NCBI GenBank assembly: GCA_900765525.1
Contig: CAAFRY010000088.1
Span: forward strand, 1 to 14,475
DNA length: 14,475 nucleotides
Direction of reading: 5' to 3'
Source: an uncultured Blautia sp.
Lineage (GTDB): Bacteria; Bacillota; Clostridia; Lachnospirales; Lachnospiraceae
Part shown: positions 105 to 14,475 of the stretch, piece after piece
Layout: every line of letters starts with the position of its first letter
Position numbering within the stretch: position 1 is the stretch's first letter
Program-made: the position numbers and the translations under genes
The notes under the pieces: model-generated
What the model was told of the DNA's origin: nothing
The model's input: only the letters and a program-made list of their open reading frames with translations
The model's database searches: none

Positions 105-1565
105 ATGCAGAGACCTGATTTGAAAACCGTAGAAAAACTGGCGGAGCATTATTCTGTAATTCCTGTCTGCAGAGAGATATTTGCAGACAGTACCACACCT
201 ATTGCCGTTCTGAGAAAGCTTTCCGCAAAAAGCAGCCGCTATTTTCTTCTGGAGAGTGTGGAGGGAGGAGAAAAATGGGGACGTTATTCTTTTCTGGGCT
301 GGGACCCAAAGCTTCGTGTGACTTGCAGGAAAAAGGAAACCCTTGTGACCAGAGGAGAACAGAAAAAGATTTACCGGGATAAAAATCCTATGGATGTTAT
401 CCGGGATATTTTAAAGGAATATAAATCACCTGTGCTTCCCGGAATGCCTCCCTTTACCGGAGGATTAACCGGATATTTTGCTTATTCCATGATTGGCTAC
501 CAGGAGCCGGTGCTGCACATAAAAAATGAGAAGTTTCCTGATATGGATTTGATGCTTTTTGATAAAATTATTGCTTATGACCATTTAAAGCAAAAAATCT
601 TGCTTATCGTTAATATGAAAACGGATTTCCCCGAAGAAAATTATAAAAAGGCAATAGAGGATTTGACAGCTATGGAGGCTCTCTTAAAAGAGGAGCTGCC
701 AGAGGAGGAGCCGGTTGTAAAGCAGAAAGAGGGTTTTTCCTGCACCACCTCCCGGGAGGAATATTTCCGTATGGTAGAGAAAGCAAAAGAGCATATCCGC
801 AGGGGCGATATTTTTCAGGCAGTTCTGTCACGGCAGTTTCAGCGGCCGGCAGCAGGAAGCCTGCTGAACCCCTACCGGATACTGCGGACCACCAATCCAT
901 CCCCTTATATGGTTTATTTCCACACAGAAGAAACAGAGCTTATGAGTACTTCACCGGAAACTCTGGTAAAGCTTTATAACGGAGTCGTCACTACTTTTCC
1001 GGTGGCGGGAAGCCGTCCAAGGGGAAGGGATTCCCAGGAGGATGAAAATCTGGAGAGAGAACTTTTAAAGGATGAAAAAGAGCTGTCAGAGCATAATATG
1101 CTGGTAGACTTAGGACGGAACGATATAGGAAAAATCAGTCGTTACGGCTCTGTCAAGGTGACAGAGTACATGGCAGTCCACAAATACTCCAAGATTATGC
1201 ATATCTGCTCTAAGGTAGTGGGAAATCTGGAGCCGGGAAAGGATGCTCTGGATGCTATTGAAGCAGTGCTTCCTGCGGGAACCTTGTCCGGGGCTCCTAA
1301 GATTCGGGCCTGCCAGATTATAGAGGAGTTAGAAAAGGAAGAAAGAGGCATCTACGGAGGTGCTATCGGATACATTGATTTTGCGGGAAATATGGATACC
1401 TGCATTGCCATCCGCATGGCGGTAAAAAAGGACGGAATGGTCTATGTACAGGCCGGCGGCGGTATTGTAGCGGACAGTGTTCCCCAGAAAGAATATGAGG
1501 AATCGGCCAATAAGGCGGCTGCAGTGATGCAGGCGGTTCTGCAGGCAGAGGAGGAAGTATTATGA
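105..1565 (+). CDS. trpE: Anthranilate synthase component I
   Basis: This is the large subunit of anthranilate synthase, which turns chorismate plus ammonia (delivered by TrpG) into anthranilate and pyruvate in the cytoplasm, the first committed step to tryptophan. The 486 residues match the usual TrpE length. The N-terminal part carries the LLES motif (residues 48-51) with a following serine at 62, the element that binds tryptophan for feedback inhibition. The C-terminal chorismate-binding domain shows DIFQAVLSRQF, STSPETLV, PVAGSRPRG, DLGRNDIGKI, LPAGTLSGAPK, YGGAIGYIDF and QAGGGIVADS, all family hallmarks. The start is well supported by AGGAGG eight bases upstream. The stop overlaps the next start as ATGA, implying translational coupling to its glutaminase partner. 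PabB and isochorismate synthase are less likely given the LLES motif and the operon. Confidence 0.97.
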   Translation: MQRPDLKTVEKLAEHYSVIPVCREIFADSTTPIAVLRKLSAKSSRYFLLESVEGGEKWGRYSFLGWDPKLRVTCRKKETLVTRGEQKKIYRDKNPMDVIRDILKEYKSPVLPGMPPFTGGLTGYFAYSMIGYQEPVLHIKNEKFPDMDLMLFDKIIAYDHLKQKILLIVNMKTDFPEENYKKAIEDLTAMEALLKEELPEEEPVVKQKEGFSCTTSREEYFRMVEKAKEHIRRGDIFQAVLSRQFQRPAAGSLLNPYRILRTTNPSPYMVYFHTEETELMSTSPETLVKLYNGVVTTFPVAGSRPRGRDSQEDENLERELLKDEKELSEHNMLVDLGRNDIGKISRYGSVKVTEYMAVHKYSKIMHICSKVVGNLEPGKDALDAIEAVLPAGTLSGAPKIRACQIIEELEKEERGIYGGAIGYIDFAGNMDTCIAIRMAVKKDGMVYVQAGGGIVADSVPQKEYEESANKAAAVMQAVLQAEEEVL

Positions 1566-3175
1566 TACTTGTGATTGATAATTACGACAGCTTTACTTAT
1601 AACCTGGTGCAGTATCTGGGAGCCATGACTCCTGATATACAAGTAATACGAAATGACCAGATTTCCCCGGAGGAGATAGAAAAGCTTTCTCCCTCCCATA
1701 TTATTCTCTCCCCTGGTCCCGGTTATCCCGGGGAAGCGGGAATCTGCCTGGAAGTGATACAAAGGTTTCAGGGGAAGGTTCCCATTCTGGGTATTTGTCT
1801 GGGCCATCAGGCTATATGCCAGGCTTTTGGAGGCACCATCGCTCCGGCGGGAAAGCTGATGCACGGGAAGAAAAGCCGGATTACATTAAATCCTGACTGC
1901 CCCTTGTTTCAGGGAATGGGAAGGTCTATAGAGGCGGCCAGATACCATTCCCTGGCAGTGAAGAGAGAGTCCCTACCCCAATGCCTGGAGATAATAGCAG
2001 AATCCGGGGATAAGGAGGTGATGGGAGTGAAACACAGGGAATATCCTGTATATGGGCTCCAGTTTCACCCGGAATCCATTCTTACGGAAAAAGGAGAAAA
2101 AATTCTAGAAAACTTTTTAAAAATAAAGACGGAGAAGGAGGACAAAATTATGATTAAAGAAGCCATTCACACCTTGATGGAGGGACAGGATTTAAGCTTT
2201 GATACAGCAAAAGCAGTTATGGAAGAAATGATGGAAGGAAGAGCCACCCAGGCCCAGATGGGAGCTTTTCTGGCCGCCCTCAGAATGCAGGGAGAGAGCA
2301 TAGAGGAAATCACGGCTTTTGCAGAAGTGATGCGGGAAAAGGGAATAAAAATACGGCCCGAGAGAGAGGTTATTGACATTGTAGGAACAGGGGGAGACGA
2401 GGCAGGAACCTTTAATATTTCCACAACCTCGGCTTTCGTGGTGGCTGCAGCAGGAATTCCGGTGGCCAAACATGGAAACCGCAGTGTTTCAAGCCGCAGC
2501 GGAGCGGCAGATGTTTTGGAAAATCTGGGGGCAAACGTAAACCTGGATGCGAAACAGAACGAGACGATTCTAAACCACACCGGCATGTGCTTCTTATTTG
2601 CACCGGTCTACCATTCTTCCATGAAGTATGCGGCCCCTGTGAGAAAAGAAATGGGAGTGCGGACTGTATTTAACATTCTGGGGCCTTTGTCCAATCCGGC
2701 GGCAGCCACCATGCAGCTTTTAGGCGTATATGACAAAAAGCTGGTAGAGCCTTTGGCTCAGGTTCTGGGAAATTTGGGAGTTACCAGAGGCGTGGCGGTC
2801 TGCGGCGCTGACGGACTGGATGAAATCACGCTCACCGGAGAGACTCTGGTGTGCGAAATCCGTTTTGGGAAAACCAGAAGCTATACTATCACCCCGGAGC
2901 AGTTTGGCATGAAGCGCTGCCAGCTTCAGGAGCTGGTAGGAGGGGACCCTAAGGAAAACGCCGGGATTACCAGAGATATTCTCTGTGGAAAAGAAAGGGG
3001 CCCAAAACGGGATGTGGTGCTGCTGAATGCAGGAATGAGTCTGTATCTTGGAATCGACGGCATTACCCTGGAGGAAGGGGTTAAAATGGCGGCGGAAATC
3101 ATTGACAGCGGCAAGGCGAAAGAGAAACTGGAAGAGTTTACCGCAGCCACAAGAGAATATGAGGTGAAAGCATGA
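1562..3175 (+). CDS. trpGD: Fused anthranilate synthase glutaminase (TrpG) and anthranilate phosphoribosyltransferase (TrpD)
   Basis: This bifunctional 537-residue protein joins two steps. Residues 1 to about 187 form a class I glutamine amidotransferase that feeds ammonia to TrpE: nucleophile Cys79 in GICLGHQ, His169 and Glu171 in QFHPES, plus PGPGYP at 51-56. Residues 197-537 form TrpD, which adds phosphoribose from PRPP to anthranilate: GTGGDE at 275-280 and KHGNRSVSSRSG at 303-314 are the anthranilate/PRPP-binding signatures. Each half has the usual stand-alone length, and the linker is only the translated former intergenic region. That linker encodes EKEDKI from a ribosome binding site and is followed by Met197, so a free TrpD may also be made. 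It overlaps trpE and trpC by ATGA at both ends. TrpG-TrpD fusions are known from enterobacteria; this one looks like a simple loss of the trpG stop. Confidence 0.95.
   Translation: MILVIDNYDSFTYNLVQYLGAMTPDIQVIRNDQISPEEIEKLSPSHIILSPGPGYPGEAGICLEVIQRFQGKVPILGICLGHQAICQAFGGTIAPAGKLMHGKKSRITLNPDCPLFQGMGRSIEAARYHSLAVKRESLPQCLEIIAESGDKEVMGVKHREYPVYGLQFHPESILTEKGEKILENFLKIKTEKEDKIMIKEAIHTLMEGQDLSFDTAKAVMEEMMEGRATQAQMGAFLAALRMQGESIEEITAFAEVMREKGIKIRPEREVIDIVGTGGDEAGTFNISTTSAFVVAAAGIPVAKHGNRSVSSRSGAADVLENLGANVNLDAKQNETILNHTGMCFLFAPVYHSSMKYAAPVRKEMGVRTVFNILGPLSNPAAATMQLLGVYDKKLVEPLAQVLGNLGVTRGVAVCGADGLDEITLTGETLVCEIRFGKTRSYTITPEQFGMKRCQLQELVGGDPKENAGITRDILCGKERGPKRDVVLLNAGMSLYLGIDGITLEEGVKMAAEIIDSGKAKEKLEEFTAATREYEVKA
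2135..2152 (+). promoter_or_regulatory. Internal ribosome binding site and start for the TrpD half of trpGD
   Basis: AAGGAGG followed by ACAAAATT and an in-frame ATG (codon 197) lies exactly at the domain boundary. The 18 bases are identical to those at the trpE start (90-107). The site is optimally spaced, so it could start a separate TrpD of 341 residues inside the fused gene. Sequence and spacing are seen directly; use of the site is inferred. Confidence 0.65.
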
Positions 3176-3948
3176 TATTAGAAAAAATCGGGGCAGCCAC
3201 CAGAGTAAGAGTGGAAAAACAAAAAGAAATCCTGCCGCTGAGTATGTTGAGAGAGCAGGCAGAAAAAACAGAAGCAAAACAAGGAAAGTCTTTTTATCAG
3301 GCTCTCACAGGAGAAGAAATGGCCTTTATCTGTGAAGTAAAAAAGGCCTCTCCCTCCAAGGGGATAATTGCCAAAGAATTTCCTTACCTGGAAATTGCCA
3401 GAGAATATGAAGAGGCAGGAGCAGCAGCTATTTCCTGCCTTACAGAGCCGGAATTTTTCCTGGGGAAGGATGCCTATCTCAGGGAAATCAGCAGCCAGGT
3501 TTCCATACCCGTACTGCGGAAAGATTTTACCATTGACGAATATCAGATTTATGAGGCAAAGGTTCTGGGCGCCGGGGCTGTACTTTTGATTTGTTCCCTT
3601 TTGGAAGAAAAGACACTGGCCAGGTATCTGGAAATTGTCCGGAGTCTGGGACTTTCCGCTCTGGTGGAGGCCCACGACAGAGAAGAAATCCAGATGGCCC
3701 TTCAGGCCGGCGCACAAATTATCGGAGTGAATAACCGAAATCTGAAAGATTTTACGGTCAGCCCCCACAACTGTCTGGCTCTCAGAAGCTATGTGCCCGG
3801 AGATAAGGTGTTTGTGGCAGAGAGCGGCATCCGCACCAGGGAAGAGGTAAAACAGCTGGAGGAAGCAGGGGTGTCAGCGGTTCTGATTGGAGAAACTTTA
3901 ATGAGGAGCCCGGATAAAAAAGCTATGCTCCGGGAACTCAGGGGGTAA
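3172..3948 (+). CDS. trpC: Indole-3-glycerol phosphate synthase
   Basis: This enzyme closes the indole ring, converting 1-(2-carboxyphenylamino)-1-deoxyribulose 5-phosphate to indole-3-glycerol phosphate with loss of CO2 and water. The 258-residue single-domain (beta/alpha)8 protein shows the family signature CEVKKASPSKG (Glu55, Lys57, Ser60), the general-acid lysine in LRKDF (Lys117), LVEAHD (Glu166), GVNNRNL, and the phosphate-binding ESGI and IGETLM loops near the C-terminus. The ATG overlaps the trpGD stop and has GAGGTGA just upstream. In enterobacteria TrpC is fused to TrpF; here the two are separate genes five bases apart. Confidence 0.97.
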   Translation: MILEKIGAATRVRVEKQKEILPLSMLREQAEKTEAKQGKSFYQALTGEEMAFICEVKKASPSKGIIAKEFPYLEIAREYEEAGAAAISCLTEPEFFLGKDAYLREISSQVSIPVLRKDFTIDEYQIYEAKVLGAGAVLLICSLLEEKTLARYLEIVRSLGLSALVEAHDREEIQMALQAGAQIIGVNNRNLKDFTVSPHNCLALRSYVPGDKVFVAESGIRTREEVKQLEEAGVSAVLIGETLMRSPDKKAMLRELRG

Positions 3949-3953
3949 GGAAT

Positions 3954-4571
3954 ATGATAAAAGTGAAAATCTGCGGCATCAAAACCAAGGGAGAGGCGGA
4001 AATTTTAAACCGGTGGCAGCCGGATTTTGCTGGTTTTGTTTTCGCTGAGGGAAAACGTCAGATTTCCCTGGAAAAGGCAATAGAATTAAAAGCAATCCTC
4101 TCTCCTCAGATAAAAACCGTAGGTGTGTTTGTAAATGCGCCCTTGGAGCAGGCAGTCCGGGCTGCCGAAAGAGGAGCCATAGATTTTATCCAGCTTCACG
4201 GACAGGAAGAGGGCTCTTATATGGAAGCCCTGAGAAATTATACAGATAAGCCTCTGATAAAAGCTTTGAGAGTAAGGACCAGAGAAGATATTTTGCAGGG
4301 GGAAAAGCTGCCTTGTGATTATCTTCTTCTGGATACTTATGTGAAAGGAAGCTGGGGAGGCAGCGGCCAGGCTTTTGACTGGAGCTTGATTCCCCCCATA
4401 GAAAAACCCTATTTTCTGGCAGGAGGCCTGACAGGAGAAAATGTGGAGCTGGCCATGAGTCTTGCAGCTCCTTTTGCCCTGGATGTAAGCAGCGGAGTGG
4501 AAGGTCCTGATGGTAAGGATGAGGAAAAAATAAGAGAATTTATAGATAAAGTGAGGAAGAATCATGAGTAA
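3954..4571 (+). CDS. trpF: Phosphoribosylanthranilate isomerase
   Basis: TrpF catalyses the Amadori rearrangement of N-(5-phosphoribosyl)anthranilate to the substrate of TrpC. The 205-residue TIM-barrel protein has the general-base cysteine in KICGI (Cys7) and the general-acid aspartate in LLLDTY (Asp127), together with GFVF near residue 27, the loop motif [21 protein letters not shown] and DVSSGVE, which bind the substrate phosphate. Length is normal. It starts five bases after trpC behind a modest AAGGA site and overlaps trpB by eight bases, so it is probably translated in a coupled way with its neighbours. Confidence 0.96.
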
Positions 4572-5748
4572 AGGAAGATATGGAATTTACGGAGGACAGT
4601 ATATACCGGAAACCCTGATGAAGCCGGTGGAAGAGCTTTTACAGGCTTACGAGGCCTGCAAAAAAGACCCTCAGTTTCAGAAAGAATTAAAGGAGCTTCT
4701 GCAGAATTATGCAGGAAGGCCTTCTATGCTGTATTATGCAGAAAAAATGACAAAGGACCTGGGAGGAGCCAGGATATATTTAAAGCGAGAGGACTTAAAC
4801 CACACAGGCTCCCACAAAATAAATAATGTACTGGGGCAGGTCTTGCTGGCCAAAAAAATGGGAAAGACCAGAATCATAGCAGAGACGGGAGCAGGACAGC
4901 ACGGTGTGGCAGCAGCTACGGCAGCCGCTCTTATGGGAATGGAATGTGAAATCTTTATGGGGGAGGAAGATACCAAAAGGCAGGCCTTAAACGTGTTCCG
5001 GATGGAGCTTTTGGGGGCTAAGGTACATGCTGTAACAAGTGGAACAGGCACTTTAAAGGATGCGGTAAATGAGGCTATGCGGGAGTGGACCAGAAGGATG
5101 GAGGATACTCTTTATGTGCTGGGTTCTGTTATGGGCCCCCATCCCTTCCCTATGATGGTAAGGGATTTCCAGAAGGTTATCGGAGAAGAGATTAAGGAAC
5201 AGTTATTAGAAAAAGAAGGCAGGCTGCCGGATGCAATCCTGGCCTGTGTGGGAGGGGGCAGCAATGCCAAGGGAGCCTTCTACCCTTTTATCCAGGATGA
5301 GCAGGTACAGCTTATCGGCTGTGAGGCCGCAGGTCTGGGAATTGATACGGATAAAAATGCAGCCACTATGAGCTGCGGAAGCACGGGAATTTTTCACGGC
5401 ATGAAATCTGTATTTTGCCAGGACCAGTACGGACAGATAGCTCCGGTGTATTCAATTTCCGCAGGACTGGATTATCCGGGAATCGGTCCGGAACACGCCT
5501 ATTTGGCAGAGATTGGCCGGGCGGTGTATGTGCCGGTAACAGACCGGGAGGCAGTGGAGGCCTTTGAATACTTATCCAGAACAGAGGGAATCATCCCTGC
5601 CATAGAGAGCGCCCATGCAGTGGCTTACGCCAGAAAACTGGCTCCCACCATGGATAAAGATAAGATTATGGTAGTAAATCTTTCAGGAAGAGGCGACAAG
5701 GATGTGGCCGCAATAGCAAGATACAGAGGAGTGGAGATATATGAGTAG
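4564..5748 (+). CDS. trpB: Tryptophan synthase beta chain
   Basis: TrpB joins indole, channelled from TrpA, to serine using pyridoxal phosphate and gives L-tryptophan. The 394-residue protein begins with the typical [14 protein letters not shown]. It has the PLP Schiff-base lysine in HTGSHKINN (Lys85), the catalytic glutamate in AETGAGQHG (Glu107), the cofactor phosphate-binding GGGSNA loop, and the C-terminal LSGRGDKD. It is a TrpB1-type protein by length and N-terminus, as expected when trpA is adjacent. The start overlaps the end of trpF by eight bases, and the stop overlaps the trpA start by eight bases, an arrangement that favours balanced synthesis of the alpha2beta2 complex. Confidence 0.97.
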
Positions 5749-6523
5749 GATTACAGAAGCATTTCAGGATAAAAAAGCCTTTATACCTTTTGTCACAGCA
5801 GGAGACCCTTCCCTGGAGGTGACAGAAAAACTGCTTTATGCCATGGACCAGGCAGGAGCGGATGTTATAGAAATCGGGATTCCTTTTTCTGACCCCACGG
5901 CGGAAGGCCCGGTGATACAGGAGGCCAACGAAAGGGCCTTAAAAGCCGGCTGTACTACGGACAAGCTGTTTGACATGCTGGCCCAGGCAAAAGAAAAGGT
6001 GAAAGCCCCTATGGTTTTTCTTACTTACTTAAATCCTATTTTTACTTATGGCAAGGAAAAATTTATGGAAAAATGCAGGGCCTGCGGTATAGAAGGCCTG
6101 ATTGTGCCAGATATGCCCTTTGAGGAAAAAGAGGAACTGGCAGGGGTGTGCCGGGAATACGGCATTGATATTATTTCTCTCATTGCACCTACCTCCAGGG
6201 AGCGGATTGCTATGATAGCAAGAGAGGCCCAGGGCTATATTTACTGTGTATCCTCTCTGGGTGTTACGGGAATGAGGAGCCAGATTACCACGGACATTGG
6301 AAAAATGGTGGAAAAGGTGAGGAAGGTTACAAAAGTTCCCTGTGCTGTAGGCTTTGGAATTTCCACTCCAGAACAGGCCCGGGAGATGGCAGGGCTTTCC
6401 GACGGAGCAATTGTAGGCAGTGCCATTGTGAAGATTATAGGAGAATATGGAGATGCCTGTGTTCCCTATGTGGCAGATTATGTAAAAAAAATGAAAGAAG
6501 CCGTGGACTGCAGTGCAAAATGA
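5741..6523 (+). CDS. trpA: Tryptophan synthase alpha chain
   Basis: TrpA cleaves indole-3-glycerol phosphate to indole and glyceraldehyde 3-phosphate and passes indole to TrpB. The 260-residue TIM-barrel protein shows PFVTAGDPS, the catalytic glutamate in [11 protein letters not shown] (Glu44, equal to Glu49 of Salmonella), [25 protein letters not shown] and GAIVGSAIV. One feature stands out: the second catalytic acid, Asp60 in Salmonella within ADGP, is a glutamate here (Glu55 in TAEGPVIQ). Glutamate keeps the charge, so the enzyme is probably still active. It is the last gene of the operon; no clear terminator follows it. Confidence 0.96.
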
Positions 6524-6546
6524 TGTTAAAAGTTTATCAAAACCTA

Positions 6547-6575
6547 TTGAAAAATCAGGGAAAACAAGGTAAAAT
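6547..6575 (+). promoter_or_regulatory. Sigma-A-type promoter of the decarboxylase operon
   Basis: TTGAAA (6547-6552), a 17-base spacer and TAAAAT (6570-6575) closely match the housekeeping consensus. The expected transcription start is near 6582, immediately before the first hairpin of the leader. It separates the decarboxylase operon from trpA, although read-through from trp remains possible because no terminator lies between them. Confidence 0.7.
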
Positions 6576-6581
6576 TAGACT

Positions 6582-6780
6582 CGGCAGAAATTGGTTTTGC
6601 TTATGTATCGTGATGAAGGAAACCAAGAGGTGATTTCTGCATATGTGCCGGATGAAACACATTATTAGTGCAGAAATCCCGGTAAACGACAAAGAAAGAC
6701 AGCAAAATCCCGGTTCAAAAGAAAGGGAGGAATGCTGTCTGTATTTGCCGTAAAAAATATAAAAAATGGAGGGCTGATTC
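6582..6780 (+). ncRNA. Structured 5' leader of the decarboxylase operon (candidate cis-regulatory RNA)
   Basis: About 200 nt separate the predicted transcription start from the first ATG, and much of this can pair. Hairpin A (6584-6640) pairs GCAGAAAT with ATTTCTGC and TGGTTT with AAACCA. Hairpin B (6633-6677) reuses the same ATTTCTGC arm, pairing it with a second GCAGAAAT at 6670 and ATATGTG with CACATTAT with one bulged base. A and B cannot form together. Further on, CGGTAAA (6680-6686) can pair with TTTGCCG (6744-6750) around an inner hairpin AGACAGCA/TGCTGTCT (6697-6740), itself containing TCCC/GGGA. The ribosome binding site GGAGGG (6768-6773) lies after these helices. I match it to no known riboswitch class; the RNA function is inferred. 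Confidence 0.45.
6670..6714 (+). repeat. Direct repeat GCA(G)AAATCCCGGT in the leader
   Basis: GCAGAAATCCCGGT at 6670-6683 recurs as GCAAAATCCCGGT at 6702-6714, differing by one base deletion, with the two start points 32 bases apart (about three DNA turns). A third GCAGAAAT is at 6584 and its reverse complement at 6633. They may be protein-binding sites or parts of RNA helices. Confidence 0.5.
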
Positions 6781-8217
6781 ATGAGTAGTACAGCACAAAG
6801 CTTAGCAAGTAAGAGAATTGCTTCTTTACTTGATGAGAACAGTTTTGTTGAAATCGGCGGTTATGTAACAGCAAGAAATACAGATTTCAACTTATCTGAA
6901 AAAGAAACACCGGCAGATGGCGTCATCACCGGATACGGCGTGATTGACGGAAGCCTGGTTTATGTGTACAGCCAGGATGCTTCCGTGTTAAACGGCTCTA
7001 TCGGTGAGATGCATGCGAAAAAAATCGTAAATCTGTACGACCTGGCGATGAAGACAGGTGCGCCGGTTATCGGTCTTGTGGACTGTGCGGGACTGAGACT
7101 GCAGGAGGCCACTGACGCTTTAAATGCCTTTGGCGAAATTTACACAAAGCAGGTAATGGCTTCCGGCGTGATTCCTCAGATTACAGGTATTTTCGGAACC
7201 TGCGGCGGCGGTCTGGCCGTTGTACCCGCTCTTACCGACTTTACTTTTATGGAGGAGAAGAAGGGAAGACTTTTTGTCAATGCTCCTAACGCATTAGAGG
7301 GAAATGAAATTTCAAAATGTGACACCTCCAGCGCAGCATACCAGAGCCAGAATGCAGGTCTGGTAGACGTACTGGGAAGCGAAGAGGAAATCCTGGCTCA
7401 GATGAGAGAACTGGTATCCCTGCTTCCTTCTAACTATGAGGACAATTCCGCTTATGTGGAATGTACCGATGATTTGAACAGAGTATGCCCGGATTTGGCA
7501 AACTGCGTGGGAGATACCTCCATCGCTCTTTCCCAGATTGGGGATAACAACGAATTCTTCGAGGTAAAAGCAGCTTACGCTAAGGACATGGTTACCGGAT
7601 TTATCCGCTTAAACGGAGCTACTGTAGGCTGTGTGGCAAACAGAAGTGAAATTTACAACGAAGAAGGCGAGAAGACAGACAGCTTTGACAATGTACTGTC
7701 TGCAAGAGGATGTAAGAAAGCAGCAGAATTTGTGAAATTCTGTGATGCATTTGACATTCCGGTTCTCACTCTTACAAATGTTAAAGGATATAAGGCTACC
7801 AAGTGTTCTGAGGCTAATATGGCAAGAAATGCAGCAGAGCTTACCAACGCCTTTATCAGCGCAACCGTTCCAAAGGTCAACGTAGTAATCGGAGAGGCTT
7901 TCGGAAGCGCATATCTGACTATGAACAGCAAATCCACAGGAGCTGACATGGTATATGCATGGCCAAGTGCCCAGATTGGTATGATGGATGCTAAGCTTGC
8001 AGCTAAGATTATGTATGCAGATGCTGACGTTAATACTATTAACGAGAAAGCTGCTGAGTATGCAATGCTGCAGTCCAGCGCTGTATCTGCTGCAAGAAGA
8101 GGCTATGTTGATACGATTATCGAGGCTGAGGATACCAGAAAATATGTGATTGGTGCTTTTGAGATGTTATTCACAAAGAGAGAGAATCGTCCAGACAAAA
8201 AACACGGCACGGTTTAA
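6781..8217 (+). CDS. mmdA: Acyl-CoA carboxyltransferase subunit (methylmalonyl-CoA decarboxylase alpha / transcarboxylase 12S type)
   Basis: Proteins of this family move a carboxyl group between an acyl-CoA (such as methylmalonyl-CoA) and biotin on a carrier protein. The 478-residue protein has both crotonase-like halves. The N-half shows SQDASVLNGSIGEMHAKKI (64-82), SGVIPQITGIFGTCGGGLAV and PALTDF. The C-half shows GFIRLNGATVGCVAN, AAEFVKFCDAFDIPVLTL, ATVPKVNVVI and YAWPSAQIGMM. It is somewhat shorter than the usual roughly 510 residues and diverges at places normally near-invariant: DSGGARIQEG is DCAGLRLQEA, PGFLPG is KGYKAT, and YGGAY is FGSAY. The true acyl-CoA substrate is therefore uncertain. 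GGAGGG eight bases upstream supports the start. The gene leads an operon with OadG-, biotin-carrier-, OadB- and OadA-like genes, which points to a Na+-coupled complex in the cytoplasm at the membrane. Confidence 0.85.
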   Translation: MSSTAQSLASKRIASLLDENSFVEIGGYVTARNTDFNLSEKETPADGVITGYGVIDGSLVYVYSQDASVLNGSIGEMHAKKIVNLYDLAMKTGAPVIGLVDCAGLRLQEATDALNAFGEIYTKQVMASGVIPQITGIFGTCGGGLAVVPALTDFTFMEEKKGRLFVNAPNALEGNEISKCDTSSAAYQSQNAGLVDVLGSEEEILAQMRELVSLLPSNYEDNSAYVECTDDLNRVCPDLANCVGDTSIALSQIGDNNEFFEVKAAYAKDMVTGFIRLNGATVGCVANRSEIYNEEGEKTDSFDNVLSARGCKKAAEFVKFCDAFDIPVLTLTNVKGYKATKCSEANMARNAAELTNAFISATVPKVNVVIGEAFGSAYLTMNSKSTGADMVYAWPSAQIGMMDAKLAAKIMYADADVNTINEKAAEYAMLQSSAVSAARRGYVDTIIEAEDTRKYVIGAFEMLFTKRENRPDKKHGTV

Positions 8218-12312: not shown

Positions 12313-13230
12313 ATGGGCAACACGGAACATTTACTCAGCAGAATAAACAGACAGTATCAAAGTTTTAGCAAAGGACAGAAAAAGCTGGCCTCTTATATTG
12401 TAGATAATTATGATAAGGCTGCTTTTTTTACGGCGGCTAAGCTGGGAGAGACAGTGGGTGTCAGCGAATCTACGGTGGTAAGATTTGCTATTCATCTGGG
12501 CTATAAAGGCTATCCGGAATTTCAGAAGGCTTTGGAGGAATTGGTGCGGAATAAGCTGAATTCTATCCAGAGAATGGAGGTTACCTATGGTAAGGTGCCT
12601 CAGTCGGAGATATTGGATACTGTGCTGCACTCTGACATTGATAAAATCAAGCTGACCCTGGAGGGAATAGACCATGAGGCTTTTGAGCAGGCCATTGAAA
12701 CCCTGCTGCAGGCCAGGGATATTTATATTGTGGGAATCAGAAGCTGCGCCCCTCTTGCTGCTTTTATGGGATTTTATTTTAATTTAATTTTTGACCATGT
12801 GCGTCTGTTAAATACCAGTAATTCCAGTGAGCTTTTTGAGCAGATGATACACATAGGGGAGAAGGACGTGATTATCGGTATCAGTTTCCCCAGATACTCT
12901 ATGCGGACCCTGAAGGCTCTGGAATTTGCTAATAACCGAAAAGCCAAAGTCATCACTCTTACAGATAGTATCCATTCTCCCATCAATCTCTATTCCTCCT
13001 GCAATCTTATAGCCAGAAGCGATATGGCTTCTATTGTAGATTCTCTTGTAGCGCCTCTGAGTGTGGTAAACGCTTTGGTGGTGGCTCTTAGCATGAGGAA
13101 GCAGTCTGAGGTAGTGGAGACCCTGGAATCCCTGGAAAAGATATGGGACGAATATCAGGTATATAACAGCGATGAAATCAATTTAGCAGATAATGATGAC
13201 ATTCAGCTGCTGGAGCCCAGGGCCGAATAA
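12313..13230 (+). CDS. MurR/RpiR-family transcriptional regulator (HTH plus SIS domain)
   Basis: RpiR-type proteins bind DNA through an N-terminal helix-turn-helix and sense a sugar phosphate through a SIS domain. Here the HTH_6 domain covers about residues 1-80, with the recognition region AKLGETVGVSESTVVRFAIHLGYKGYPEF. The SIS domain covers about 125-255 and shows IVGIRSCAPLA (139-150) and ISFPRYSMRTLKAL (190-203), the ligand-binding loops. At 305 residues the protein is slightly longer than usual, with an acidic C-terminal tail. GAGGGA six bases upstream supports the ATG. It has its own promoter and no sugar-metabolism genes beside it, so its target and effector cannot be deduced. It may control itself through the palindrome in its leader. 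Confidence 0.92.
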   Translation: MGNTEHLLSRINRQYQSFSKGQKKLASYIVDNYDKAAFFTAAKLGETVGVSESTVVRFAIHLGYKGYPEFQKALEELVRNKLNSIQRMEVTYGKVPQSEILDTVLHSDIDKIKLTLEGIDHEAFEQAIETLLQARDIYIVGIRSCAPLAAFMGFYFNLIFDHVRLLNTSNSSELFEQMIHIGEKDVIIGISFPRYSMRTLKALEFANNRKAKVITLTDSIHSPINLYSSCNLIARSDMASIVDSLVAPLSVVNALVVALSMRKQSEVVETLESLEKIWDEYQVYNSDEINLADNDDIQLLEPRAE

Positions 13231-13259: not shown

Positions 13260-14475
13260 GTGGCAAAAATACTGATTATCGGAGGCGGTGCGGCAGGAAT
13301 GGCCGCTGCCGTTTTTCTTGGAAGAAAAGGACATCAAGTCCACGTTTTTGAAAAAAATGAGAAATTGGGAAAGAAACTATTTATCACAGGAAAGGGCAGA
13401 TGTAATCTGACAAATTCCTGTGACCAGGAGACCTTTTTTAAGTCTGCGGTAACTAATCCGAAATTCCTCTACAGTGCTTTCTACGGCTTTACTAACCAGG
13501 ATGCCATTTCCTTTTTTCAGGAGCTGGGACTGGAAGTGAAGGAAGAGAGAGGCGGAAGAATTTTTCCTGTTTCCGACCATTCCTCTGATGTGATTCGGGT
13601 TCTGGAAAAAGAGATGGAGCGGTGTCATGTAAAGGTCCATCTGAAAACCCAGGTAAAGGAGCTGCTGCTGGAATCCGCCCAGGAAGGCGCCAGAGTAACC
13701 GGAATAAAACTCCAGGATGGAGCAGAGATAAAAGGAGATAAGGTTATTGTGGCTACCGGAGGGTGTTCCTACCAGGCTACCGGCTCTACGGGAGACGGAT
13801 ACCTTTTTGCCCAGCAGGCAGGGCTTCAGGTTAGTCCTTTGCTCCCGGCGCTGGTGCCTCTGGAAACCAGGGAGGAATATGTGACAGCCCTTCAGGGACT
13901 GGCATTAAAAAATGTGGAGCTTACCATAAAAGACGGAAAAAAGGTTTTGTACCAGGATTTTGGGGAGCTTTTGTTTACCCACTTCGGAATTTCCGGTCCC
14001 CTGGTTTTGTCAGCCAGCTCCTATGTGGGCAAGAGGCTGACAAAGAAAGCGCTGGAAGGATATATTGATTTAAAACCCGCTCTCTCCCTGCAGCAGTTAG
14101 ACATCCGGCTTTTGCGGGACTTTGAAGCTGCCCCCAATAAGGAGTTTAAGAATGTACTAAACGGCTGGTTCCCCGCAAAGCTGTATCCGGTTATGCTGGA
14201 GCTGGGAGGAATTCCCCCTAAAAAGAAAGTAAATGAAATCACCAGAGAGGAAAGGCGGATTTTTCTGGAAAAGGTGAAAAACTTTCCTCTTACCATTACA
14301 GGAACCAGAGATTTCAGGGAGGCTATCATTACCCAGGGCGGTGTGATGGTGAAGGAAATAAATCCTAAGACCATGGAGACCCGGCAGGTGAAGGACTTAT
14401 ACTTTATCGGAGAGGTTCTGGACTTAGACGCCGTCACAGGAGGTTTTAATCTGCAGATAGCCTGGTCTACTGCAA
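13260..14475 (+). CDS. HI0933/BaiN-family NAD(P)/FAD-dependent oxidoreductase (3' end outside window)
   Basis: This is a two-domain flavoprotein whose physiological substrate is mostly unknown; a relative, BaiN, has been linked to bile acid metabolism in Clostridium scindens, but most members are not. The start is GTG 13260, supported by AAAGGAG six bases upstream and by the dinucleotide-binding motif ILIIGGGAAGM right after it. Family hallmarks are LFITGKGRCNLTN (41-52 region), ATGGCSYQATGSTGDGY, LLFTHFGISGPLVLS, TQGGVMVKEINPKTME and GEVLDLDAVTGGFNLQ. The frame is open to the window edge for 405 codons, and the last motif normally lies close to the C-terminus, so only a short tail is missing. 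No terminator lies between it and the RpiR gene 29 bases upstream, so they are probably co-transcribed. Confidence 0.9.
   Translation, partial: MAKILIIGGGAAGMAAAVFLGRKGHQVHVFEKNEKLGKKLFITGKGRCNLTNSCDQETFFKSAVTNPKFLYSAFYGFTNQDAISFFQELGLEVKEERGGRIFPVSDHSSDVIRVLEKEMERCHVKVHLKTQVKELLLESAQEGARVTGIKLQDGAEIKGDKVIVATGGCSYQATGSTGDGYLFAQQAGLQVSPLLPALVPLETREEYVTALQGLALKNVELTIKDGKKVLYQDFGELLFTHFGISGPLVLSASSYVGKRLTKKALEGYIDLKPALSLQQLDIRLLRDFEAAPNKEFKNVLNGWFPAKLYPVMLELGGIPPKKKVNEITREERRIFLEKVKNFPLTITGTRDFREAIITQGGVMVKEINPKTMETRQVKDLYFIGEVLDLDAVTGGFNLQIAWSTA

Follow-up and report, generated by a model that had tools for sequence, protein, structure and literature searches.

The window analyzed here is a 14,475-nt stretch of DNA from an uncultured Blautia sp. 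that harbors a trp operon and a five-gene decarboxylase operon, with a leader of 198 nt between the promoter and the latter (Table 1). The decarboxylase operon consists of genes for MmdA-like, OadG-like, biotin carrier, OadB and OadA-like proteins and is predicted to specify a Na+-pumping biotin-dependent decarboxylase. OadB (476 vs. 191) and OadA (770 vs. 718) passed their curated cut-offs, and the score of MmdA (426) was below the methylmalonyl-CoA decarboxylase cut-off of 999. Na+-pumping decarboxylases can feed the sodium gradient in anaerobes, and Blautia is a common gut genus.

The promoter search returned a single site (TTGAAA-17-TAAAAT, ending at 6575), with 1.3 expected in shuffled sequences, and the identical −10 element together with the sequence downstream of it was found again in relatives. 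As the promoter ends at 6575, transcription is predicted to start at about 6582–6583. This agrees with the original prediction, which had placed the start directly before the first hairpin; arm 0 of this hairpin begins at 6584, and the predicted RNA 5′ end is CGG or GG.

Only 23 bases (6524–6546) lie between trpA and the −35 element, and no terminator-like site was found within 6400–6850 of the window; hence, trp transcription may continue into the decarboxylase operon. The sequence ATGTTAAAAGTTTATCAA (6523–6540) matches a Rex-type operator (TTGTTAA-N4-TTAACAA) at 12 of 14 positions. Matches of 11 or 12 positions, many of them just upstream of the promoter, occurred in 37 of 78 related upstream regions vs. 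4.3 expected from shuffles, pointing to possible redox control of the decarboxylase operon. The 78 regions belong to the best 80 of 552 loci; L014 and L080 start at the gene and were excluded. At the other end of the window, the RpiR-type gene is followed by an open frame (13260–14475) that by eye resembles an NAD(P)/FAD-type flavoprotein and runs off the window.

Table 1. Coordinates of genes, promoter and pairing arms in the window
Feature	Position	Strand	Remarks
trp operon	105–6523		upstream neighbor of the decarboxylase promoter
Promoter	6547–6575	+	−35 TTGAAA 6547–6552, 17-nt spacer, −10 TAAAAT 6570–6575; recurs in relatives
Arm 0, GCAGAAATT	6584–6592	+	5′ strand of P1a, partner arm i
P1b 5′ strand, TGGTTT	6592–6597	+	partner 6620–6625 (AAACCA)
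P1b 3′ strand, AAACCA	6620–6625	+	
AAGAGG, Shine-Dalgarno-like, in P1 bulge	6625–6630	+	AGGAGG in L115–L118
Arm i, GATTTCTGC, shared arm	6632–6640	+	partner arm 0 (fold A) or arm iii (fold B)
Arm ii, GCCGGAT	6647–6653	+	partner arm iv (P3)
Arm iii, GCAGAAATC	6670–6678	+	partner arm i (P2)
Arm iv, CCGGT	6679–6683	+	partner arm ii (P3)
Third hairpin, P4	6686–6751	+	arms 6686–6704 and 6733–6751
Shine-Dalgarno sequence of mmdA, GGAGGG	6768–6773	+	
mmdA-like carboxyltransferase gene	6781–8217	+	operon gene 1
RpiR-type regulator gene	12313–13230		directly 3′ of the decarboxylase operon

Pairing arms of the leader

The leader had been proposed to contain one arm shared by two mutually exclusive hairpins, and the repeat search recovered exactly this arrangement. 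The segment ATTTCTGC (6633–6640) is complementary to GCAGAAAT, which occurs as a direct repeat at 6584–6591 and 6670–6677. The upstream inverted match covers 8 nt and the downstream one, formed by GATTTCTGCA (6632–6641) and TGCAGAAATC (6669–6678), 10 nt, both at 100%. The proposed extensions, TGGTTT (6592–6597) with AAACCA (6620–6625) and ATATGTG with CACATTAT, are present as well and both are used in the computed folds. To this picture we add a fourth arm, as 6647–6651 can pair with 6679–6683. In the following, the helices are called P1a (arms 0 and i), P2 (arms i and iii) and P3 (arms ii and iv).

Dinucleotide shuffling of the 250-nt leader produced a shared-arm 8-mer in 4 of 20,000 trials, and shuffling of the entire 14-kb window did so in 4 of 200; thus, its chance occurrence is rare in a leader and not impossible somewhere within 14 kb. 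The segment 6575–6790 has a folding z-score of −5.24, which none of 200 shuffles reached, although part of it is due to the third hairpin (P4), located outside the shared-arm element. Hairpins with a similar stem sequence (ACAGCA/TGCTGT) also occur in the B. hansenii group, 3′ of the element. AAATCCCGGT and its 3′ flank are repeated inside the third hairpin (6674–6694 and 6705–6725, 76% over 21 nt), a repeat that was not found in the aligned relatives.

Occurrence of the element in Blautia

A search for homologous leaders upstream of mmdA had been suggested as a check. Such leaders were found with a covariance model (R1) built from 12 sequences aligned with MAFFT; at P3, this alignment was partly wrong for L113, L101, L119, L115, L116 and L118. 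Among the 20 genomes in the genus of B. hansenii (G004), 12 possess the element, which is about 105 nt long and always situated 5′ of mmdA. When 397 genomes sampled from the family were searched under stricter filters, the one positive was G004, the only Blautia among them. Over 66 loci, R1 yielded 17 matches, 13 of them distinct. The mmdA relatives considered were the best 80 of 552 loci from one scan of named genomes.

On the mmdA tree, from which L119 and L120 were omitted as partial genes, presence and absence of the element require two changes. The element-less clade around G002 (seven rows in the tree, eight genomes in the model search) is the sister group of the window. This distribution suggests that the element was gained once, at the base of Blautia, and was lost once, in the G002 clade. 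All eight Blautia genomes lacking the element also have a decayed arm 0, reading GCACGTT, GCACATT or GCATGTT. The model search of the 20 Blautia genomes gave a single strong copy per genome, before mmdA, arguing against a multi-copy or mobile element; weak additional matches in G020 (E 0.64) and G017 (E 0.90) were taken for chance.

Conservation of the helices

The shared arm with both of its matches is kept in 11 of the 12 element-bearing relatives, the later match being lost in one (L113). Counted over the 13 distinct rows, one arm is complementary to two others in 12, including three with one base unpaired. The proportion of paired cells is 100% for P1a and 87.3% for P3, numbers that are favored by the fitting of the alignment (A3) to the P1a and P3 pairs of R1; for P2, which is absent from the model, it is 97.1% with the two extension pairs included. 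When the 3′ partner was slid by 1–3 columns as a control, pairing fell to 20–51%. The arms changed 0.26 times per column on the mmdA tree vs. 2.26 times for the loops (p = 1.7e-8, with columns taken as independent, the topology entered by hand and L119 placed beside L101).

Covariation among relatives had been named as a test of the helices, and its outcome was mixed. The arms are nearly invariant and two-sided changes are few; P1a is universal in the element, while the P2 hairpin is lost in L113. The P3 column 74/108 varies on both sides (G-C 6, U-A 2, A-U 1, other 3). The P2 extension column 66/96 shows U-G 4, C-G 3 and U-A 3, but was not counted as two-sided by the tool, which measures from U-G. 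The covariation score was seldom reached in column shuffles (6 and 1 of 500), whereas two-sided pairs and pair types were no higher than in shuffled columns, both in the test of P1a/P3 (351 and 309 of 500) and in that of P2 (373 and 299 of 500). L113 has ACCAGAA as arm ii, fully complementary to UUCUGGU as its partner, so both P3 strands have changed together; P2 carries two mismatches there, and P1a is kept. In L115–L117, P2 is short of one base. By hand, P3 could also be traced in L101, L119 and L115–L118 if a bulge is allowed (e.g. ACC-GGAUU with AAUCC-A-GGU); part of this pairing counts as unpaired in the fitted alignment. The changes thus lend some support to P3.

Sequence conservation extends beyond the element. 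The sequence CGGCAGAAATTGG, directly following the −10 element, is also found upstream of mmdA in other Lachnospiraceae, where it lacks a partner arm. For this arm-0 motif with its −10 element, scores of at least 10 of 13 were reached in 36 of 78 upstream regions (from the best 80 of 552 loci, with L014 and L080 left out because they begin at the gene) vs. 1.9 expected from mononucleotide shuffles; four of the 36 carry the element and in two the motif is positioned elsewhere (L059, L074). The conservation of arm 0 without partner in other genera argues for another function of this arm, older than the element. An extended form of the motif matched 22 times across 13 genomes, with 11 of the sites at mmdA and 11 elsewhere carrying 2–3 mismatches; its reversed control matched 4 times. 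A shorter pattern gave mostly noise, and a regulon of this motif was rejected.

The partnerless copies of arm 0 would fit an explanation in which a regulator that binds DNA or RNA near the transcription start recognizes one sequence present three times, as arm 0, arm i (inverted) and arm iii, the hairpins being a by-product of their orientation. The RpiR-type gene would be a candidate source of such a protein, since it follows the operon in all eight Blautia loci examined, whether the element is present or absent. However, G002 retains this gene without having the element, and the gene was not seen in the two loci examined from other genera, the motif-bearing ones of Lactonifactor and B. wexlerae. 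Co-occurrence thus gives no support for RpiR as a partner of the leader element. Further, arm changes outside L113 mostly preserve pairing (L105, L108, L101 and L119 have G in place of A opposite U), the P3 strands of L113 were altered jointly, and the extended motif is scarce outside mmdA. We therefore regard protein recognition sites as a distinctly unlikely explanation of the arms.

Two predicted competing folds

Fold A consists of P1a and P3, fold B of P2. Fold B leaves P1b intact, and P3 is possible there as a pseudoknot, as arm iv abuts arm iii without a gap and the linkers in the window are about 6 and 16 nt long; its energy was assessed as a duplex estimate. With either fold imposed, the window element has energies of −27.1 (A) and −30.1 kcal/mol (B). 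In 10 of the 13 distinct elements, A minus B ranges from −1.8 to +4.3 kcal/mol, so that the folds are within 5 kcal/mol of each other, whereas A is strongly favored in L101 (−5.9), L119 (−6.3) and L113 (−17.3 kcal/mol). Folding of growing prefixes, which are minimum-energy structures without kinetics, proteins or pseudoknots, produced A first in all 13 elements. B appeared in 11 of them as arm iii emerged; once the element was complete, six were in B and seven in A.

These results agree with the competing-helix part of the original prediction, i.e. the two pairings exist and both are kept in most relatives. The arrangement had also been likened to the architecture usual for riboswitches and attenuators. 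No expression platform of the common type and no strongly conserved loop resembling a ligand pocket were found, and the restriction to a single genus likewise gives the riboswitch reading no support. The element is likely a lineage-specific bistable leader RNA, as judged from the modeled folds.

A simpler view is that of a passive 5′ structure, in which stable hairpins (P1 and P3, or P1b and P2) protect the mRNA and the second pairing is tolerated without being regulated. That fold A is possible in all 13 elements and strongly favored in L113, L101 and L119 suits this view, as does L113, which lacks P2 and still has P1a and P3. RNAalifold, moreover, proposed P1 alone on the alignment, with no two-sided change. 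By eye, hairpins also start the leaders of other Lachnospiraceae: those of L053, L054, L055, L043 and L060 begin with short hairpins of unrelated sequence, e.g. TGCGAAAA...TTTTCGCA, perhaps a convergent 5′ structure before mmdA. A passive role would, on the other hand, leave unexplained why GCAG of arm iii, which lies beside the P3 part and is not needed for P3, is kept in 10 of 13 elements and changed in a pair-preserving manner in two more. Columns 99–101 change less often than the loop (1.0 vs. 2.4 changes per column, p = 0.04, based on three columns), and the near-equality of A and B in 10 of 13 elements likewise speaks against the passive view. A purely passive structure appears somewhat doubtful to us.

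Possible outputs of the leader

Terminator-based attenuation in the window was rejected, since no hairpin with a U-run was found in 6400–6850. Masking of the ribosome-binding site as the main output was rejected as well: for the leader plus 60 nt, a change from A to B shifts the unpaired probability of the mmdA GGAGGG by no more than 0.19, and the start codon is 0.68–1.00 open with either fold imposed. In the unconstrained ensembles of L115–L117 the ribosome site is 0.36–0.41 open, less than under imposed A or B, which points to a further pairing in these leaders.

Translation of a short upstream ORF, with AGGAGG and ATG around arm i, could in principle select the fold through the position of a ribosome. 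L115–L117 contain AGGAGG, an ATG 10 nt further on and a 16-codon ORF, L118 has an ATG followed by a stop, and a 36-codon ORF stands behind AAGAGG in the window. In eight of the 13 elements, however, arm i is without such an ORF; five of these are devoid of any Shine-Dalgarno-matched ORF and three have GTG ORFs of 5–7 codons further on. As the upstream ORFs occur at arm i in only 5 of 13 elements and differ in frame or peptide, a conserved leader peptide over the shared arm was rejected; with no terminator found in the window either, leader-peptide control is highly improbable. The arrangement in L118 (1163–1297), AGGAGG and then ATG-TAA, is a start-stop upstream ORF within the element.

The folds differed most in how far they expose the 5′ end of the mRNA. 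In all 13 elements, its first nucleotides are 0.07–0.15 unpaired under imposed A; under imposed B, the values are 0.49–0.86 in 10 of 13. The 5′ end stays hidden under B in the window (0.11), L101 (0.19) and L113 (0.20). In the window it is predicted to be concealed by other pairing; in a separately computed fold of the window, GGCAGA pairs with UUUGCC (6744–6749).

A model for the leader

We tentatively propose that the leader alternates between folds A and B through the shared arm i and thereby sets the exposure of the 5′ end and, hence, the lifetime of the mRNA. In fold A, pairing would begin with nucleotide 2 or 3 of the predicted RNA. In fold B, arm i would be taken by arm iii, freeing arm 0 and exposing the 5′ end. 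By analogy with Bacillus subtilis, this exposure would determine mRNA survival via RppH and RNase J. RppH of B. subtilis requires a 5′ end with a minimum of two unpaired nucleotides and G in the second position, and 5′ hairpins are described to protect mRNAs (PMC3997798). We infer actual switching of the RNA, and mRNA decay as its output, from the A/B difference at the 5′ end in combination with the RppH rules and the lysC precedent discussed below. Conservation of the arms and the near-equal energies count in favor of the model, as do the passage of the prefix folds through A and B and the decay of arm 0 in the element-less Blautia genomes. The main result against it is the fold of the window itself; the broken P2 in L113, the hidden 5′ end in L101 and L113, the preference for fold A in 3 of 13 elements, the thin strict covariation, the RNAalifold proposal of P1 alone, the partnerless arm 0 elsewhere and the derivation of the RppH rules from Bacillus count against it as well. 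On balance, we consider this exposure model possible, yet short of probable.

In a more far-reaching version, the element would represent a new class of riboswitch restricted to Blautia, whose P2/P3 pseudoknot would respond to Na+ or a carboxylate by pulling arm i off the 5′ nucleotides of the mRNA, gating the access of RppH and RNase J. If true, it would constitute ligand-gated 5′-end protection without terminator or ribosome-site masking; we rate it a long shot. Na+ would be a fair candidate for the signal, because Na+-I riboswitches occur with oxaloacetate decarboxylase genes elsewhere. Exposure of the 5′ end as output, if true, would be an unusual mode of action for a leader RNA. The small leader RNA, seemingly arisen once in Blautia atop an older promoter-proximal motif, also offers a case for the study of regulatory-RNA origins.

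Relation to known leader RNAs

The original prediction had matched this leader to no known class. In agreement, there were no Rfam matches at the gathering score in the window and 18 related loci, but sub-threshold matches only. An Rfam scan of 20 further loci gave one match, a TwoAYGGAY RNA (RF01731, 81 bits) at 2118–2285 of L072, upstream of the mmdA promoter region in a Lachnospiraceae genome. Among the best-ranked titles in the open-access literature, we found no description of this leader or of decarboxylase operon control in Blautia, and the available portions of PMC11204068 and PMC5171806 contain nothing on this operon in Blautia.

Na+-I riboswitches (DUF1646 motif) are a family included in Rfam. 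According to PMC9337991, they control Na+-pump genes, including the oxaloacetate decarboxylase gene pycB in one species. The control of Na+-pump genes would be common to both, whereas the Blautia element is confined to one genus and, as stated, without Rfam match in the window and the 18 loci. In the E. coli lysC riboswitch, leader folds hide or expose RNase E sites (PMC7509114). Alternative leader folds that alter mRNA decay are thus a shared trait, for Blautia as the proposed output. In contrast, the ligand of lysC is known and translation is blocked too, while the ribosome site is predicted to change modestly in Blautia. With the 5′-terminal stabilizing stem-loops of mRNAs (PMC3997798), the leader shares a hairpin that starts at the mRNA 5′ end, which for Blautia is predicted; it differs in that the 3′ arm of its hairpin has a near-equal downstream partner in 10 of 13 elements.

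In trp-type attenuators, arms 1:2 and 3:4 pair in one state and 2:3 in the other. The Blautia leader resembles them in having four arms, a shared arm and mutually exclusive helices in an operon leader. It differs in its alternative pair, which is 2:4 with a possible pseudoknot, and in having neither a terminator (in the window) nor a conserved leader peptide. We place this element among the bistable leader RNAs, as a variant outside any named family.
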